Shown one piece after another: positions 2,827 to 18,920 of a stretch of 64,000 nt of DNA. Origin of the DNA: Occultella kanbiaonis (GTDB taxonomy: Bacteria; Actinomycetota; Actinomycetes; Actinomycetales; Beutenbergiaceae); NCBI RefSeq assembly GCF_009708215.1, contig NZ_CP046175.1, positions 5,456,001 through 5,520,000 of the forward strand, read 5' to 3'. The stretch's first letter is position 1; each line of letters starts with the position of its first letter. A program made the position numbers and the translations under genes. The notes below the pieces were generated by a model. It ran no database searches. It worked only from the letters and a program-made list of their open reading frames with translations, and had not been told where the DNA came from.

Positions 2827-2965
2827 CGGATTCCCCTCGCCGTCGTGTTGACCCCAGGTTAGGCGCGATAGCGGTCAGGACCTGTCCCCTACGACCAGGG
2901 TGACGGCTTCGCAGAATGGCGACCGTCCGCCGTCGGACGCGCGTACCGTTGGTGCGGAGCAGATC

Positions 2966-4588
2966 ATGGACGATCTCACGGCGGTCTTGGACACGGGGCG
3001 ACTGGCGTTCGCCCACGGGGACTGGCAGGGCGCGCATCGGGACCTGTCCAGGGCCCGGGAGCTCGGCACGCTCCCGACGGCGGACCTGGACCTGCTCAGC
3101 CGGGTGTGCTGGTGGGTCGGCAGGGCGCGGGAGTCGCTGGAGCTCTCCGAGGACGTCTACAACCGGTTCGAGCAGGAGGGCGATCTGCCCGGTGCGGCGA
3201 ACAAGGCGCTCAACCTCGGGCTGCTCTGGTTCATCCGCGGGGATCTGGTGATCGCCTCGGGATGGGTGAACCGCGCCCGTCGGATCCTGGCCGATCTGCC
3301 GGAGGGCGTCGAGCACGGCTATCTGCGCTACCTGGACGCGATCGTCGAGCTGGACTTCTACGGGCTCGGCCCGGCCCGCGAGAGCGCCGTGACCCTGAGG
3401 GAGATGGGACAGCGCCTGCACGCCCCACAGCTGACCTCCCTCGGCCTGGTGCTCTCGGGACTCGCCGACGCGCACACGGGCAATCCGGCGGCCGGGTTCG
3501 CGCAGCTCGATGAGGCGATGCTGCCCGTGCTCGCCGGCCAGCTGCCGGCCGAATGGGCCGGCGACGTCTACTGCACCGTCATCCACACCTGCCACAGCCT
3601 CGGTGACCTGAGCCGGATGCGCGCCTGGACCGCGGCCACGGAGCAGTGGTGCGAGCAGTTCCACGGCGAGGTGGTCTACTCCGGGATCTGCCGCGTGCAC
3701 CGCCTGCAGCTGTTGTGCACGCAAGGGGACTGGTCGACGGCGGAGGCCGGCATCGAGCGTAGCGGCGCAGAGCTGACGGGTCTGAACAACTGGGTGGCGG
3801 GTGAGGCGTACTACCAGCTCGGCGAGATCCGGCGGCTGCGGGGAGATGCAGGCGGCGCCCGGGCCGCCTTCGACCGGGCCCGTGATCTCGGTGCGGAGAC
3901 CCAGCCGGGTGCGGCCCTGCTCGACCTGGCGGGCGGGCACGTCCGTGAGGCCTCGGCCGCGCTGCGGGCCGCGCTCGCCGGCCGGGACCGGCTCTCCTCC
4001 GCCCGGCTGCTCGGCCCCGCCGTGGAGATCGCCCTCGCCCAGGGCCGCACCGACGAGGCCGACCGGCTCTGCGGCGAGCTGGAGGCCGTCGCCACCGAGT
4101 TCGCCACCGAGGGTTTCCGCACCTGGGCGGTGCACGCGCGGTCCGCCGTACTGGTGGCCCAGGGTCGCCACGAGGAGGCACTGCCCGTGCTGCGCCGCGC
4201 CGCGGTCGGCTATCGCGCGCTGCAGGCCCGGTACGAGACCGCCCGGATCTACGAACTGAGCGCCCTCGCCCACACCGGCCTCGGGGACGAGGCGGCCGCG
4301 GAGTCCGACCTGGCCACGGCGGTCGCCATCTACGGCGAGCTCGGCGCGGCGCCGGACGTGGCGCGCCTCGACGCAGGCCCGTTGCCCGGCGGGCTGACCG
4401 CACGGGAGGCGGAGGTGCTGCGGCTGATCGCCGCCGGCGCGAGCAACCGGGACGCGGCCGCCGCCCTGTTCATCAGCGCCAAGACGGTGGACCGGCACCT
4501 GGCGAACATCTTCGCCAAGATCGACGTCTCCTCCCGGACCGCGGCCGCCGCCTGGGCCCACGAGCACCGGCTGAGTGGCCGTCGCTAG
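2966..4588 (+). CDS. TPR-containing LuxR-family regulator (paralogue A)
   Basis: 540 residues. Residues 1 to about 460 are helical TPR-like repeats without a Walker motif, so this is not a classical ATPase-containing LAL protein. The C-terminal 65 residues form a LuxR/NarL HTH (LTAREAEVLRLIAAGASN...KTVDRHLANIFAKIDVSSR). An in-frame codon exists upstream at 2900. I chose ATG 2966 because it has CGGAG 6 bases ahead, and because the paralogue at 7658 aligns from that point (LxTGRxxFxxxxWxGAxRxL). A -10-like TACCGT (2944-2949) and a 6-bp dyad CGTCCG-ccgt-CGGACG (2924-2939) lie just upstream, compatible with autoregulation. It probably controls the operon starting at 4861. The signal is unknown. 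Confidence 0.75.
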   Translation: MDDLTAVLDTGRLAFAHGDWQGAHRDLSRARELGTLPTADLDLLSRVCWWVGRARESLELSEDVYNRFEQEGDLPGAANKALNLGLLWFIRGDLVIASGWVNRARRILADLPEGVEHGYLRYLDAIVELDFYGLGPARESAVTLREMGQRLHAPQLTSLGLVLSGLADAHTGNPAAGFAQLDEAMLPVLAGQLPAEWAGDVYCTVIHTCHSLGDLSRMRAWTAATEQWCEQFHGEVVYSGICRVHRLQLLCTQGDWSTAEAGIERSGAELTGLNNWVAGEAYYQLGEIRRLRGDAGGARAAFDRARDLGAETQPGAALLDLAGGHVREASAALRAALAGRDRLSSARLLGPAVEIALAQGRTDEADRLCGELEAVATEFATEGFRTWAVHARSAVLVAQGRHEEALPVLRRAAVGYRALQARYETARIYELSALAHTGLGDEAAAESDLATAVAIYGELGAAPDVARLDAGPLPGGLTAREAEVLRLIAAGASNRDAAAALFISAKTVDRHLANIFAKIDVSSRTAAAAWAHEHRLSGRR

Positions 4589-4601: not shown

Positions 4602-4743
4602 GAACCCCGCCGAGTTCGACGCCAAGCCTTCGAACTAGCCAGAAGTTCAGCACTAGCTCGAGGTGTCGGTGACGAACTCGACTGCTGTCTCGACCCGGTC
4701 ATCGCCCGGGCCCGGCGCCAGGGGGCGCTTCCGCGGAAGCGCC
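4602..4743. repeat. Intergenic nested-hairpin element, copy 1
   Basis: After GAACCCCGC (4602-4610) comes an outer stem CGAGTTCG/CGAACTCG (4611-4618 with 4673-4680). Inside it is a stem TCGAaCTAG/CTAGcTCGA (4630-4638 with 4653-4661, one mismatch) with the 14-nt loop CCAGAAGTTCAGCA (4639-4652). A 20-bp perfect palindrome centred on TTCCGCGGAA (4724-4743) follows. Copy 2 at 17470-17584 keeps the pairing and the loop but has different stem sequences. Both copies lie downstream of a + strand gene. The role is unknown; the terminal palindrome could act as a terminator for the LuxR gene. Confidence 0.65.
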
Positions 4744-4860: not shown

Positions 4861-5232
4861 ATGGACCTCAGCCTCGCAGTGTTGGCAGGCAGCATCTCCA
4901 GCGTGATCTTCGCCGGGAGCGTCCTGCCGATGGTCCTCAAGGCCGTCCGCACGCGCGACCTCGCGTCCTACAGCCTCGGCAACCTGTTGCTCGCGAACAC
5001 GGGCAACGTCGTGCACTCCATCTATGTGTACAGCCTGCCGGCGGGCCCGATCTGGGCGCTGCACGGCTTCTATCTCATCACCACCGGCCTGATGCTGGTC
5101 CTGTACCTGCGCCACGCGCGTTCGGTGCCGGAGCCGGTGGCTTCCATCGACAAGGAGAACCCCCTTGAGTACCACCTACCCGACCCCCGCGACGGCACCG
5201 AGCTCGTCGGAACCGTCGGCGACCGAGGCTGA
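4861..5232 (+). CDS. SemiSWEET/PQ-loop-like three-helix membrane protein
   Basis: 123 residues with three predicted membrane helices (about 5-27, 40-60 and 68-90) and a hydrophilic tail. The first helix ends LPMVLKAVRTRDLASYS. This resembles the PQ-loop signature of SemiSWEET and MtN3-type proteins (LPQ..K..RTKS...S), with Met in place of Gln. Such proteins dimerise to move small sugars or other solutes, but the substrate here is unknown. The tail overlaps the next gene by 68 bases in another frame, indicating translational coupling. It may work with the methyltransferase, but that is inference. Confidence 0.6.
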   Translation: MDLSLAVLAGSISSVIFAGSVLPMVLKAVRTRDLASYSLGNLLLANTGNVVHSIYVYSLPAGPIWALHGFYLITTGLMLVLYLRHARSVPEPVASIDKENPLEYHLPDPRDGTELVGTVGDRG

Positions 5233-14904: not shown

Positions 14905-14922
14905 GCGCTTCCGCGGAAGCGC
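14905..14922. terminator. 18-bp palindrome after the WYL regulator gene
   Basis: GCGCTTCCGCGGAAGCGC is perfect and lies 3 bases beyond the stop of the leftward WYL gene. The same GCTTCCGCGGAAGC core closes the intergenic element at 4724-4743, and a degenerate form is at 17569-17584. Here the hairpin part of that element is missing. It is probably a terminator. Confidence 0.5.
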
Positions 14923-14925
14923 CCG

Positions 14926-15888
14926 CTAACCCGCTTCGGTGGCGTCGAGGAGTCCACGCCCCCACGCCCTCATGTAGGCGATCGCCTCGGGGGGACCGTG
15001 CACCACGAACGGCGCACCGATCGCGACGAGGCAGAAGGCCGCCCAGTCCAGCGACTCGGCGGCGATGTGGACCTCGCACGAGGTCTCGTCCAAGGGCTCC
15101 ACGGTCCCGTGGTGCACGATCTCGGCCCCGATCCGTTCGGCGGGCGCCTGGACTGTCGCGTGCACGCGGTGGCGTGACGGCAGGACGCCGAGCTGAGCGC
15201 GCACGAATGCGACGGGATCGTCATCGGGCAGACGGCGCGGGGCGAACCTGTTCCCGGTCCGGTGGGGCTCCGTGATGCGGTCGACCCGGAACGTCCGCCA
15301 GTCCGCACGGTCCAGGTCCCACGCGACGAGGTAGATCCGGTTCTCCACGTTCACGATCCGGTGTGGTTGCGCCGTACGTCGAGAAGGTTCGCCTGCTCGG
15401 GAGCTGTAGGCGAACTCGACCGTATCGGCGTCGCGGCAGGCGAGGGCCAGCGTGGTGAGCGCGGTGATGTCGCCGATCGCAGCGCGGTTCCCGGGGCCAC
15501 CGGCCGGGACCGCGACGGCCCGCAGGCTGTCGATCCGGCCTCGGATGCGGGGCGGGAGGACCTGCACGATCTTGGCCATCGCACTGACGGCAGCTTCGGC
15601 CGAGGACGGGTGCGCACCCGTGGCGATCTCCTTCAGCCCGAGCACCGTGGCCGCGGCCTCGTCCTCGCTGAGGACCAGTGGCGGAAGGGATGCCCCGGCG
15701 CTGAGCTGGTAGCCGCCGCCGGTCCCCCGGGTCGTGATGATCGGATAGCCGAGCTGCTGCAGGCCGTTGACGTCGCGGCGGAGGGTCCGCTGGCTCACGT
15801 TGAGCCGGCGCGCGAGTTCGGTTCCGGGCCAGTGGCGCCGGCTCTGCAGGAGCCCGAGGAGGTCAAGGGCCCGGGTGCTGGTCGACAT
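14926..15888 (-). CDS. WYL-domain helix-turn-helix regulator (YafY/PafC type)
   Basis: 320 residues. The N-terminal HTH_11 (residues 5-60: RALDLLGLLQSRRHWPGTELARRLNVSQRTLRRDVNGLQQLGYPI) is followed by a WYL domain around 140-230 (VEFAYSSR...PHRIVNVENRIYLVAWDLDRADWRTFRVDRI) and the WCX C-domain. WYL proteins sense small ligands or nucleic acid. It is divergent from a VOC plus NmrA-like gene pair across an 85-base gap, so it probably regulates that pair. Confidence 0.85.
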   Translation of the reverse strand: MSTSTRALDLLGLLQSRRHWPGTELARRLNVSQRTLRRDVNGLQQLGYPIITTRGTGGGYQLSAGASLPPLVLSEDEAAATVLGLKEIATGAHPSSAEAAVSAMAKIVQVLPPRIRGRIDSLRAVAVPAGGPGNRAAIGDITALTTLALACRDADTVEFAYSSRAGEPSRRTAQPHRIVNVENRIYLVAWDLDRADWRTFRVDRITEPHRTGNRFAPRRLPDDDPVAFVRAQLGVLPSRHRVHATVQAPAERIGAEIVHHGTVEPLDETSCEVHIAAESLDWAAFCLVAIGAPFVVHGPPEAIAYMRAWGRGLLDATEAG

Positions 15889-15973
15889 TCCTCCAGACTA
15901 GTTTCACTTGTGGCCAGATACCGACCGGAAGTCACGCGAGACTTGGAGGACCAACACGAACTGAAGGAGTCCC

Positions 15974-16540
15974 ATGTCTGCTCCCACGCCGTCGACCGTC
16001 CCCGCCGCCCCCGCCGGCTCCGCGACCGTCGACCCGTTCATCTGGTCCGACGACGCTCCCGGCCTGATCGCCTTCCTGGTCGACGTGTTCGGCGCCGCCG
16101 AGGTTCCGGAAGCCCGTACCGCCGACACCGACGGGCTGGTCCTGCACTCCGAGCTGCAGATCGGCGACTCCAGCGTCACCATCGCCGACCGCAAGCCTGG
16201 CTGGCCGTACACCCCGGCGTTCGTGCGCGTGTACGTCGACGACCCGGCGGCCGTCCTGGCACGCGCCGTGGCCGGCGGAGCCCGGACGGTCACCGAACCG
16301 ACGGAGTTCTGGGGCGACGTGCTCGCACGCTTCGCCGACCCGTTCGGCCACCTGTGGTGGGTCTACAAGCACAACCCGGGTGCCACCACCTGGGACGGCG
16401 CCGAGAGCGACTGGTCAGGGGGCGACGCCGGCGGAGAGGACGAACAGTCCTGGGAGTCGGCCGCCACGCCGGAGCTGGCCTACATCCACGCGACCCTGAT
16501 GGAGGCGATGTCCTCGCTCCAGGACCCCCGCACGCGCTGA
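15974..16540 (+). CDS. VOC-superfamily (glyoxalase/PhnB-like) protein
   Basis: 188 residues. Residues 20-140 form a betaalpha-beta-beta-beta VOC module: FIWSDDAPGLIAFLVDVFGA, LQIGDSSVTIAD, VRVYVDDPAAVLARAVAGGARTV and FADPFGHLWWVYKH. This YtPhnB-like pattern is common beside WYL regulators. The tail of about 45 residues is acidic (SGGDAGGEDEQSWES) and ends in a helix. No metal-binding triad is certain and the substrate is unknown. GAAGGAG precedes the ATG. The NmrA-like gene follows after 32 bases with its own ribosome-binding site, so this is a two-gene operon facing the WYL regulator. Confidence 0.75.
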   Translation: MSAPTPSTVPAAPAGSATVDPFIWSDDAPGLIAFLVDVFGAAEVPEARTADTDGLVLHSELQIGDSSVTIADRKPGWPYTPAFVRVYVDDPAAVLARAVAGGARTVTEPTEFWGDVLARFADPFGHLWWVYKHNPGATTWDGAESDWSGGDAGGEDEQSWESAATPELAYIHATLMEAMSSLQDPRTR

Positions 16541-16572
16541 CAACCCGACCAGAAGAGAAAGGACCGATCAGC

Positions 16573-17406
16573 ATGCGCATCCTGGTCACCGGAGCAACCG
16601 GACAGGTCGGACGCCATCTCGTCGACGAACTCCACCGGCGCGGACATCACGTCCGGGCCCTCACCCGAAGCCCCCAGAACGCCGGATTCCCGGACGGCGT
16701 CGAGGTCGTCGGCGGCGACCTCACCGAGGTCGAGACCCTCGGCGACGCGTTCGAAGGAGTCGACGCGATCCACCTCATCACCTTCGGCGGGGACTTCGGT
16801 GACCTGACCAACGGCACTGAAATCGTCGACCTGGCCGAGCGGAAGCGGGTCCGCCGTGCGTCCGTGCTCGGGAGCTGGTCCCGGACCAGCGTCGAGACCG
16901 CGCTCAAGGGCAGCGCGATCGGATGGACCCTGCTGCACCCGGTCGAGTTCATGGCCAACACGTTCGACTGGGCAGACGAGCTCAGCACGAACGGCACCCT
17001 GTCCACGCTCGCCACCTACCCGAGCGCGATGGTCCACGAGGCGGACATCGCCGCCGTCGCCGCCAGCGTCCTCACGGAGCAGGGGCACGCGGGCCGCACC
17101 TATCCATTGACCGGCCCAGAAGCGCTCACCCCGCAGGAGCGAGTTCGCGTCCTCGCGGAGCAGACCGGCCGGGATCTCACGTTCGTGCGACTGACCGAGG
17201 CGCAGGAGCGTGTACGCCTGCGCGGCTATGGATACGACGACGACTACGTGGAGTTCGGGATCAACCTGGCGACGAACCCACCTGCGACCGCGGGAAGAGT
17301 CCTTCCCACCGTCCGGGACGTCACGGGCAGCCCGGCACGCACGTTCGTCCAATGGGCGAAGGAGAATGCGGCACGGTTCCTCCCGCGGGATACCAGCGGA
17401 GTGTAA
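16573..17406 (+). CDS. NmrA-like NAD(P)-binding atypical short-chain dehydrogenase
   Basis: 277 residues with the N-terminal Rossmann motif LVTGATGQVGRHLVDEL and the NmrA/QorB-type layout: VVGGDLTEVETLGDAFEGVDAIHLIT, VLGSWSRTSVETALKGS, TLLHPVEFMANTFDW and a C-terminal variable substrate domain. The Tyr-x3-Lys active site of classical SDRs is absent. These proteins act as quinone reductases or as redox-sensing NAD(P) binders. ATG 16573 has AAAGGA upstream and follows the VOC gene closely. The intergenic hairpin element copy 2 lies downstream. Confidence 0.75.
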   Translation: MRILVTGATGQVGRHLVDELHRRGHHVRALTRSPQNAGFPDGVEVVGGDLTEVETLGDAFEGVDAIHLITFGGDFGDLTNGTEIVDLAERKRVRRASVLGSWSRTSVETALKGSAIGWTLLHPVEFMANTFDWADELSTNGTLSTLATYPSAMVHEADIAAVAASVLTEQGHAGRTYPLTGPEALTPQERVRVLAEQTGRDLTFVRLTEAQERVRLRGYGYDDDYVEFGINLATNPPATAGRVLPTVRDVTGSPARTFVQWAKENAARFLPRDTSGV

Positions 17407-17469: not shown

Positions 17470-17584
17470 GAACTCCCCGCGACCTAGTCGGCGCGGCGTC
17501 GAGATCGCCAGAAGTTCGGGACGATCTCGACAGTGGAGTGGCTAGGTCGGCGAACCGAGCGGGCTCCACGCTTCCGCGGAATCG
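17470..17584. repeat. Intergenic nested-hairpin element, copy 2
   Basis: After GAACTCCCCGC (17470-17480) comes an outer stem CGACCTAG/CTAGGTCG (17480-17487 with 17542-17549), which can extend inward with wobble pairs. It encloses a perfect 10-bp stem GTCGAGATCG/CGATCTCGAC (17498-17507 with 17522-17531) with the 14-nt loop CCAGAAGTTCGGGA (17508-17521). TTCCGCGGAA (17572-17581) follows within a degenerate palindrome. Compared with copy 1 (4602-4743), the loop and geometry are kept while every stem has changed sequence. It lies between the NmrA-like gene and a converging VOC-SRPBCC gene. Confidence 0.65.
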
Positions 17585-17630: not shown

Positions 17631-18647
17631 TCAGGATCGGCCCGTTCCCGCCCGCGCCGCGGCCTCGAAGTGCCCCAGGATCACCGGCCAGTCGGTGAAC
17701 TTCGCACGCCCCTCGGCGTTGCGCGCGTCCCAGCCGCCGTGTTCCAGCCGGACCAGGGTGCCGCCGTCGGAAGCAGTGAAGTGCGCGTCCAGCCGCGTCG
17801 GGATCGCGGGATCCTGGGCGAGCGTGAACGTCATCGCCCAGTGCGAGGGCCGGCCGCGGTGCAGCACGCGGCCGATCGGCAGCCGGCCCCGGCTGTTCTC
17901 GAAGACCACCTCGTCGGCGACGGTCACCGCGGCGCCCCCCTCCCGGCCGTACTCGACCCACCATCCGAACGAGGTGAACAGGTCGTAGGCGGCGCCGGGC
18001 TCGAGCGGCACCCTGACCTCGGTGACGATCGGCGGGAGCTCCCGGTCCGCTCGGGCCTGCTCGCCGTCGGTCTGCAGGAACGTGAGCCGGTTCCCGAACG
18101 GGTCGCTGACGGTGACGGTCAGCCCCCACGGCTCCTGGTCAAGACCGGGCGCCGCGTACGGGTAGTCCTTCGCCGACAACGCAGCATGGACTGCCGCGGC
18201 GTCGGCCACCTCGATGAGCACGGCGGTTCCGGGTGTGCCGTCGCCGTGGTGCTCGGACAGGTGCAGCCGGGCGCCGTCGCCGGATGAGACCTGCACGTAC
18301 CGGGGCAGGTGGTCGGCGAACCGGTGCCCCCAGTCCACCGTCCAGCCGAGGTAGCCCACGTAGAAGGCCAGCGCCTTGTCCCAGTCGAACATGCGCAGGA
18401 TGGGGATGACGGCGGAGGTCGCCGGCGCGTGGTCGGCTCCGGTCCCGCTCGGGTCACCCGGGCGGGAGCCGGCCGCGCCGGCGGGTCCGGCGGTGCCGGC
18501 CAGGGTATTCCAGTCCGCGAGCCCGTGGGTCTTCGCGAGCAGTTCGAGCGCGGCCGAGTGGCCGATCTCGATCCCTGCGGCGGCGAGGGCCGTGCGCAGG
18601 CGCCTGGCCTGGGCCTTCGCCTCATCGGAGGTGGGCACGGCGTTCAT
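17631..18647 (-). CDS. Three-module glyoxalase-type protein: leader domain, VOC domain, SRPBCC domain
   Basis: 338 residues in three parts. Residues 8-50 (AKAQARRLRTALAAAGIEIGHSAALELLAKTHGLADWNTLAG) match the small domain found at the start of glyoxalase superfamily proteins. Residues about 75-195 are a bleomycin-resistance-like VOC fold (PILRMFDWDKALAFYVGYLGWTVDW...VTVSDPFGNRLTFLQ). Residues about 205-338 are an AHSA1/SRPBCC hydrophobic-cavity domain ending WPVILGHFEAAARA. The VOC module may bind a hydrophobic toxin or antibiotic, and SRPBCC adds another ligand pocket. It appears to be transcribed alone. Confidence 0.75.
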   Translation of the reverse strand: MNAVPTSDEAKAQARRLRTALAAAGIEIGHSAALELLAKTHGLADWNTLAGTAGPAGAAGSRPGDPSGTGADHAPATSAVIPILRMFDWDKALAFYVGYLGWTVDWGHRFADHLPRYVQVSSGDGARLHLSEHHGDGTPGTAVLIEVADAAAVHAALSAKDYPYAAPGLDQEPWGLTVTVSDPFGNRLTFLQTDGEQARADRELPPIVTEVRVPLEPGAAYDLFTSFGWWVEYGREGGAAVTVADEVVFENSRGRLPIGRVLHRGRPSHWAMTFTLAQDPAIPTRLDAHFTASDGGTLVRLEHGGWDARNAEGRAKFTDWPVILGHFEAAARAGTGRS

Positions 18648-18776: not shown

Positions 18777-18842
18777 GCAGGCGGCCGGCTGCCGAAGCCG
18801 TGGCACCATCATGCCTCGCGGCGTGGCCGGACGGCGACGAAC

Positions 18843-18889
18843 GCGCGCAAACCCCCGGTCCGATCGCCCGGGACCGGGGGTTTGCGCGC
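18843..18889. terminator. Strong terminator of lpd
   Basis: A perfect 19-bp stem (18843-18861 with 18871-18889) with a 9-nt loop begins 31 bases after the stop of the leftward lipoamide dehydrogenase gene. It is the longest perfect hairpin noticed in the window. Confidence 0.85.
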
Positions 18890-18920
18890 ACTCGACTCAG
18901 GCGGTGGGGCGTCAGCGAAG

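Follow-up and report, generated by a model that had tools for sequence, protein, structure and literature searches.

The window, by which we mean the whole stretch of 64,000 nucleotides of Occultella kanbiaonis DNA analysed here, contains two intergenic sequences that can each fold back on themselves, and the question they raise is what kind of element they are and what spreads or keeps it. The initial annotation had described them as sharing one layout of nested stems, and this observation proved real, in part. The layout is present, as both copies align without a gap on a common plan of 31 + 14 + 31 nt (Table 1). A feature beyond that first description is the tandem doubling of a unit in each arm, the two units lying about 20 bp apart.

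Table 1. Positions, within the window, of the two palindromic copies and of their units
Feature	Position	Strand	Sequence or remark
Copy 1, four-unit quasi-palindrome (31-nt arm + 14-nt centre + 31-nt arm)	4608..4683	+	model match E 2.5e-16; copy 1 is part of the model
Copy 1, outer left unit	4611..4618	+	CGAGTTCG
Copy 1, inner left unit	4631..4638	+	CGAACTAG; 20 bp after the outer unit
Copy 1, centre	4639..4652	+	CCAGAAGTTCAGCA; trait of the subfamily, not of the family
Copy 1, inner right unit, inverted	4653..4660	-	CTAGCTCG on the + strand
Copy 1, outer right unit, inverted	4673..4680	-	CGAACTCG on the + strand
Copy 2, four-unit quasi-palindrome	17477..17552	+	model match E 1.1e-15; copy 2 is part of the model
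Copy 2, outer left unit	17480..17487	+	CGACCTAG
Copy 2, inner left unit	17500..17507	+	CGAGATCG
Copy 2, centre	17508..17521	+	CCAGAAGTTCGGGA
Copy 2, inner right unit, inverted	17522..17529	-	CGATCTCG on the + strand
Copy 2, outer right unit, inverted	17542..17549	-	CTAGGTCG on the + strand

Copy 1 lies between an ORF for a LuxR-type regulator (2900-4588) and a small ORF without Pfam match (4861-5232), and copy 2 occupies the convergent junction between an ORF on the + strand (15262-17406) and a glyoxalase-family ORF on the - strand (17631-18647). When the whole window was scanned for palindromes, at least 21 of 31 possible pairs were found at 8 of 128000 half-position centres, copy 1 (22 pairs) and copy 2 (21 pairs) included, while single-sequence RNA folding of the two copies gave z values of -1.96 and -1.79, which is weak evidence. 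The best palindrome of the window by pair score (24/31) is a near-perfect long hairpin at about 18840-18895 with the arm CGCGCAAACCCCCGGTCC, which is also found in the related genome G001 and resembles an ordinary terminator.

The element had been described as having two copies. A covariance model was built from six own-genome copies, picked with a motif in which no more than TCGA/TCGA and part of the loop is fixed. On the own chromosome (5,648,255 bases) the model found 16 distinct places at E<=5e-4, besides four weaker matches with E values of 0.026 to 0.62. The supposed invariance of the 14-nt loop did not hold up either. The sequence CCAGAAGTTC occurs 30 times in the genome, three of these in the context of the element, where it forms the centre shared by three own-genome copies; in other copies and species the centres differ and are often themselves palindromic. 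The idea of a pseudoknot between loop and GAAC was dropped because the loop is not conserved. As to the TTCCGCGGAA palindrome downstream, it does stand about 17-45 nt past three own-genome elements (window positions 4729-4738 and 17572-17581, and the copy at C1:4,348,840, locus L053) and G001 and G002 preserve it where copy 1 lies, but it does not travel with the family; a third occurrence in the window, at 14909, has no element nearby.

Beyond the own genome, matches at E<=0.01 were obtained in 23 of 59 genomes, a count that includes the own genome and some false matches, since part of it rests on false-looking coding repeats (L066, L074, L076 and L078). Hosts among the matches listed are Cellulosimicrobium, Isoptericola, Cellulomonas, Krasilnikoviella, Sanguibacter, Oerskovia, Flavimobilis and Actinomyces. 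The model matched 25 to 110 times in each of six whole records, both strands counted, with Cellulosimicrobium cellulans PW reaching the 110; in Isoptericola AK164 the distinct places number 25 at E<=1e-3. When 1.6 Mb of PW were scanned strictly for four units, 7 elements emerged, a smaller number than the covariance model gives for this stretch. A class-wide search with a second model and strict filters matched 2 of 296 genomes at E<=1e-6, the own genome being one of them, so that this unit type seems confined to few lineages. The palindromes form a little-studied, dispersed, intergenic family in a group of actinobacteria; a search of titles and abstract openings found no paper that treats the element, or palindromes around AbiEi/DUF559 genes.

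The element is a quasi-palindrome of about 70-76 bp that consists of four units of about 20 bp, two forward and two inverted. In other genera the unit measures 19-20 bp with the core CGAGnnMG, again twice forward and twice inverted around a centre of mostly 12-14 nt, and its sequence depends on the host: CGAGRTAGARC in Cellulosimicrobium, CGAGTTCGGCA in Cellulomonas sp. IC4_254, CGAGATCGACG and CGAGGTAGGCA in Isoptericola and CGAGGTCGTGA in Sanguibacter hominis. Longer arrays exist as well: at one junction shared by Krasilnikoviella flava (L176:7330-7480) and Isoptericola AK164 (L266), the former has five forward plus three inverted units and the latter a larger number. The tails of the units differ there between the two genera, which suggests a genome-wide concerted change of the unit. 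In a further array, in C. cellulans PW (L234:1890-2270), four forward units spaced at 21 bp are separated from three inverted units by about 230 bp that contain a perfect hairpin of some 21 bp.

That the stem arms pair though their sequences differ was likewise claimed at the outset, and it is borne out by covariation. Over the six own-genome copies the covariation score was 0.295 compared with 0.160 in shuffled sets (0/500 shuffles as high; 0.04-0.10 when the arms were slid), and over 44 copies found by the unit motif it was 0.455 compared with 0.134 (again 0/500; slid 0.08-0.10). An absence of further copies and of covariation had been named as what would count against the element; the search found both more copies and covariation. 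Pairing extends to the spacers, on which the motif sets no constraint: a fraction of 0.69 of their positions pair, compared with 0.36 when they are set against the partners of other elements and 0.44 when this is done within a unit type. The sample comprised 120 motif matches, ten of which visual inspection later marked as false. These ten (L178, L183, L189, L210, L235, L239, L244, L263, L269 and L280) were kept in the spacer-pairing count and left out of the counts of target duplications and locations given below. In the alignment of 44 copies, 1159 of 1364 cells are Watson-Crick pairs, with 27 GT and 36 AC cells on an arbitrary strand, and when the 73 co-directional copies are read in the sense of the transcript, 87 G-U stand against 89 A-C combinations. 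In an RNA that is transcribed and under selection, G-U pairs are expected to be favoured; as they are no commoner than A-C here, the pairing is of the DNA type. It fits a DNA hairpin or cruciform, or arms that are kept alike via template switching.

Spread by a REP-type nuclease had been among the first suggestions. The gene for RAYT/Y1_Tnp (PF01797) is absent from the own genome and present in 4 of 59 genomes (own included in the 59), these not being G001-G003, G014, G017, G049 or G052; among the four, elements occur in G004 only, with 5 two-strand matches, and RAYT was rejected as the linked enzyme. Clustering of element-adjacent genes yielded, beside a largest cluster of a common transporter ATPase type, one gene family that recurs at several unrelated places. 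Its members account for 9 of 372 element-adjacent genes, compared with 1 of the 664 remaining genes of these loci (p 6e-4), although the family profile was built from five of the nine, which leaves 4 versus 1 for the part not so selected; in this count, positions were entered by hand for the elements next to L050, L055 and L142 and for those at the L038-L083 centres (six dropped). The suggestion of a REP-type spread comes near, except as to the enzyme: the linked gene is of an AbiEi-like and Vsr/MTES_1575-like kind.

In the alignment, the members measure about 300-340 residues; their N-terminal part resembles AbiEi, and their C-terminal part resembles the Vsr-type MTES_1575 nuclease or DUF559, for the most part in weak matches. 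Several PADLOC AbiEi models match 8 of the 9 members strongly, and Pfam MTES_1575 and AbiEi_4 each match 5 of 9 at E<=0.1. Over the curated Pfam cut-offs are AbiEi_1 in L139, AbiEi_4 in L360 and DUF559 in L382, L383 and L384; MTES_1575 never exceeds its cut-off in the members, and in L379 nothing in Pfam matches at E<=0.05. Eight residues are invariant in nine sequences (S214, E217, R221, D248, E259, D261, G262 and R284 in L281 numbering). In an AlphaFold model, a weak one with a mean pLDDT of 57, the C-terminal third runs helix-strand-strand-strand-helix-strand, with block pLDDT values mostly of 62-83 and a dip to 39. This is the order of PD-(D/E)XK enzymes, and the modelled arrangement fits such a core. 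A PDB sequence search gave nothing convincing, and phage records gave no match. The linked gene probably encodes a DNA-cutting enzyme. No member was found within the window itself. The member of the own genome (C1:1,076,850-1,077,881) is flanked by model matches at 1,076,663-1,076,738 (E 0.026) and 1,077,896-1,077,971 (E 4.9e-5), which have diverged from each other and share 2 10-mers. G003 encodes a protein 71% identical to it, apparently at another place, as the flanks of the 3-kb locus do not match, and this member has an element of the unit type on one side only.

What is new here is that related palindromes enclose the genes of this AbiEi-like plus Vsr/MTES_1575-like nuclease family. As members had already been inspected when the bracketing tests were settled on, the plasmid set and the stretch of PW are the fairer samples. 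Ten members not chosen for palindromes comprise five records of a plasmid collection, four further places and one in 1.6 Mb of PW. At least 10 shared 10-mers between the two flanks were found in 8 of these 10 members versus 66 of 1585 other genes, and at least 25 in 5 of 10 versus 1 of 1585, where the gene ends of L381, L385 and L387 are guesses. In the element loci, 6 of 8 members reach 10 shared 10-mers (L050 has 2, L116 has 9), and 13 neighbouring genes score 0-6 in the same test. Palindromes on the two sides share at least 7 9-mers in 6 of the ten members first examined (L281, L206, L231, L139, L071 and L077). A palindrome alone says little, as 276 of 1592 genes have one with 19/31 pairs on both sides; seven of these reach at least 7 shared 9-mers, two of them being members. 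By a flank-to-flank alignment score the members were not separated from other genes (rank 1 to 958 of 1207).

The individual cases vary. Tsukamurella L379 has bracketing palindromes in the four-unit 19-bp layout with a different unit, CGCTGCCG, and in Collinsella aerofaciens, which belongs to another class, three palindromes before the gene and two after it were read by eye. L385 fails the flank word count and has palindromes visible by eye on both sides, L116 has a unit-type copy on one side only, the Nonomuraea member L381 is not bracketed, and L273 is neither element-adjacent nor bracketed. The PW member has a palindrome of its own, and of the three occurrences of its word in 1.6 Mb two adjoin the gene; the member has no adjacent element of the main family, and a main-family partner was not found in the 1.6 Mb. 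Near the gene ends of L384 (Tsukamurella) and L387 (Arthrobacter), there are exact inverted repeats of 15-22 bp without two clear full palindromes, which look like the ends of an insertion sequence. A further palindrome family was seen in PW (L371:15400-16500), where CGAGCACGA-like units flank the gene for a membrane-like protein.

The palindromes beside the gene were also compared with the dispersed ones, using for each genome the dispersed copies in hand and not all of them. In 6 of 6 genomes the gene-side palindromes match the dispersed palindromes of their own genome best, and the true assignment alone is at the top of 720; the margins were small in G003 (2.91 versus 1.25) and in the own genome (3.08 versus 0.95). 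The palindromes bracketing the gene and the dispersed palindromes therefore represent one family per genome, which by itself does not establish that the protein acts on them.

On balance, we think it probable that the two window copies are solitary, non-autonomous repeats of a system that resembles REP/RAYT but employs a non-homologous putative enzyme of the AbiEi-like and Vsr/MTES_1575-like type. The enzyme would have to bind, cut and mobilise the palindromes, a step that we infer beyond co-location, and no other single explanation would cover dispersal, cognate units and bracketing as well as mobilisation by the nuclease. In such a mechanism, the four units may fold back as single-stranded DNA into one hairpin of about 30 bp, the AbiEi-like N-terminal domain may recognise the units, and the Vsr/MTES_1575-like PD-(D/E)XK nuclease may nick or cut at the palindrome. 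Repair or template switching would then copy the hairpin into new intergenic places, and since insertions close to promoters would be purged, the copies would remain chiefly downstream of genes. A candidate parent of the solitary palindromes is the nuclease gene with its bracketing copies. A more far-reaching version is a new IS-like class of mobile DNA in Actinomycetota, in which an AbiEi/Vsr-like nuclease mobilises folded single-stranded palindromic ends without target duplication and has spawned swarms of enzyme-less copies with lineage-cognate units; this we regard as a tentative proposal, somewhat less likely to be right than wrong. Two of our estimates of probability were lowered slightly because other genes are also found between element pairs and because the cases of the own genome and of PW fit less well.

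The locations of the copies bear on a different explanation. With gene positions from a home-made gene caller, 145 distinct elements, partly chosen for pairing, were distributed as 51 in convergent, 73 in co-directional and 11 in divergent gaps; of the remainder, 6 lay within predicted genes and 4 at an edge. In the unit-motif set, 86 of 110 elements could be placed in a gap of 75-1500 bp, and for these the convergent gaps hold 37 where 7.1 are expected by length, the co-directional gaps 47 where 51.3 are expected (37 of them in the upstream half) and the divergent gaps 2 where 27.5 are expected. Copies thus favour the 3' ends of genes and convergent junctions, and the early proposal of a 3' element was right in terms of location. 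The hairpins could accordingly be bidirectional 3' elements that are kept as terminators or insulators, with the nuclease genes merely one more class of gene between them. This would also suit the preservation of some places across species and even genera in spite of changed units, and the fact that 8 of 11 inspected element pairs enclose an unrelated gene, with 3 of 11 enclosing a member. A terminator, however, does not need a unit repeated at 20 bp, G-U is not preferred over A-C in the sense of the transcript, and neither the result of the flank word test (8 of 10 members versus 66 of 1585 genes) nor the rarity of the PW bracketing word away from its gene is what this explanation leads one to expect. 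We consider it unlikely, while it is the strongest of the alternatives.

The copies also differ from species to species. At copy 1's place, G001 and G002 have an element, that of G002 with arms of another, CGAGTCAG-like unit type, and G003 has a shorter gap without one; at copy 2's place, no unit-bearing palindrome was found in the related stretches of G001 and G002 (both incomplete) and of G003. Isoptericola chiayiensis contains near-identical copies at unrelated places. Together, presence and absence, unit switches and near-identical copies indicate gain, loss and dispersal. Insertion itself is unproven, as neither a clean empty site nor a transposition was seen and no target duplication was found in 109 elements, in which flanking 4-mer repeats number 22 compared with 14.4 in shuffles and longer repeats are as in shuffles. 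A second alternative, free of any enzyme, is conceivable, as template switching during replication could alone maintain the pairing. The elements would then be neutral quasi-palindromes, with units from slippage and pairing from template switching, without selection and without an enzyme. The almost wholly Watson-Crick pairing, the longer unit arrays and the strongly different arms of sister species between like flanks would all be natural outcomes of such a process, which leaves unexplained, however, why unrelated places across a genome have units in common, why the location bias is so strong and why one gene family is bracketed. We regard this explanation as improbable, and more so than that of 3' elements.

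A spacing of about 20 bp and units that differ by genus could, in the third place, point to chromosome-organising sites, that is, double-stranded DNA bound by a protein with a preference for units two helical turns apart. Relevant to this is the distribution of the 16 own-genome copies (dnaA being at 101-1543 of the own contig), which leaves a terminus-side gap of 42% of the chromosome (C1:1.99-4.35 Mb), and only 94 of 20000 random sets leave one as large. Against this, one weak own-genome match (E 0.62) lies inside the gap, the largest copy-free gap of Isoptericola AK164 is not significant (1180/20000), and the variable spacers pair, which a protein of this kind would not require; such a function is slightly less probable still. 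Finally, a structured RNA, riboswitch or attenuator, as the covarying nested stems had led the initial annotation to consider, is very improbable, as G-U is not favoured (87 versus 89 and 27 versus 36 in the two sets above), the centre is variable, convergent junctions are a common site and Rfam at gathering thresholds has no match in the window.

The reading that we favour, namely a REP/RAYT-like system with another enzyme, can be compared with known systems. As far as the available parts of the respective reports describe them, REP/REPIN-RAYT systems share with the present one the dispersed intergenic palindromes, the inverted doublets that form one hairpin, the predominance of non-autonomous copies and the sequence classes that each adjoin their own distinctive single-copy gene, each distinctive enzyme gene being adjoined by a different palindrome cluster (PMC3116915). 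Unlike REP/REPIN, the palindromes here consist of four units of about 20 bp and occur in Actinomycetota, and unlike RAYT, the linked gene does not encode a Y1/HUH transposase. As the defining enzyme is absent and the linked gene is of another kind, the system is not a member of REP/RAYT. REP hairpins carry the tags GTAG or CGTC, according to the title of one report (PMC3733652); the three bases that flank the outer units here show a G/C preference and nothing more, and some units contain GTAG internally (GAGGTAG). Similar to MITEs, the element is short, dispersed, non-autonomous and built as an inverted repeat, but it lacks a target-site duplication (109 elements) and its arms are tandem units.

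With the AbiE type IV toxin-antitoxin systems, the members have in common the N-terminal part, which resembles the AbiEi antitoxin, but they are one gene fused to a nuclease-like domain and bracketed by palindromes, and among the annotated neighbours in L379, L380, L382, L383, L384 and L386 none is named AbiEii or toxin. The C-terminal domain is like DUF559 and like the Vsr-like REase MTES_1575, which is part of a large multi-domain protein and for which no link to palindromes appears in the available part of its description (PMC3710099). The attC sites of integrons are structure-conserved palindromes with two boxes per arm, much as the element has two units per arm. The copies here are dispersed, in contrast to cassette arrays, and no integron integrase exceeded the cut-off in 59 genomes, where none of 14 controls did either; integron attC was rejected.

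To our knowledge, REP-type palindromes have been tied to one enzyme family, the RAYTs. If a nuclease of another fold has the same arrangement, genome-wide swarms of palindromes have evolved at least twice. This would also suggest a role for the solitary 'AbiEi' and 'DUF559' genes of actinobacteria, which are now named antitoxins or left unnamed, and since every gene is accompanied by a palindrome of its own, sequence alone suffices to match an enzyme to its site. The bracketing of these genes suggests a bacterial 'jumping repeat' system that is built around a new kind of enzyme.
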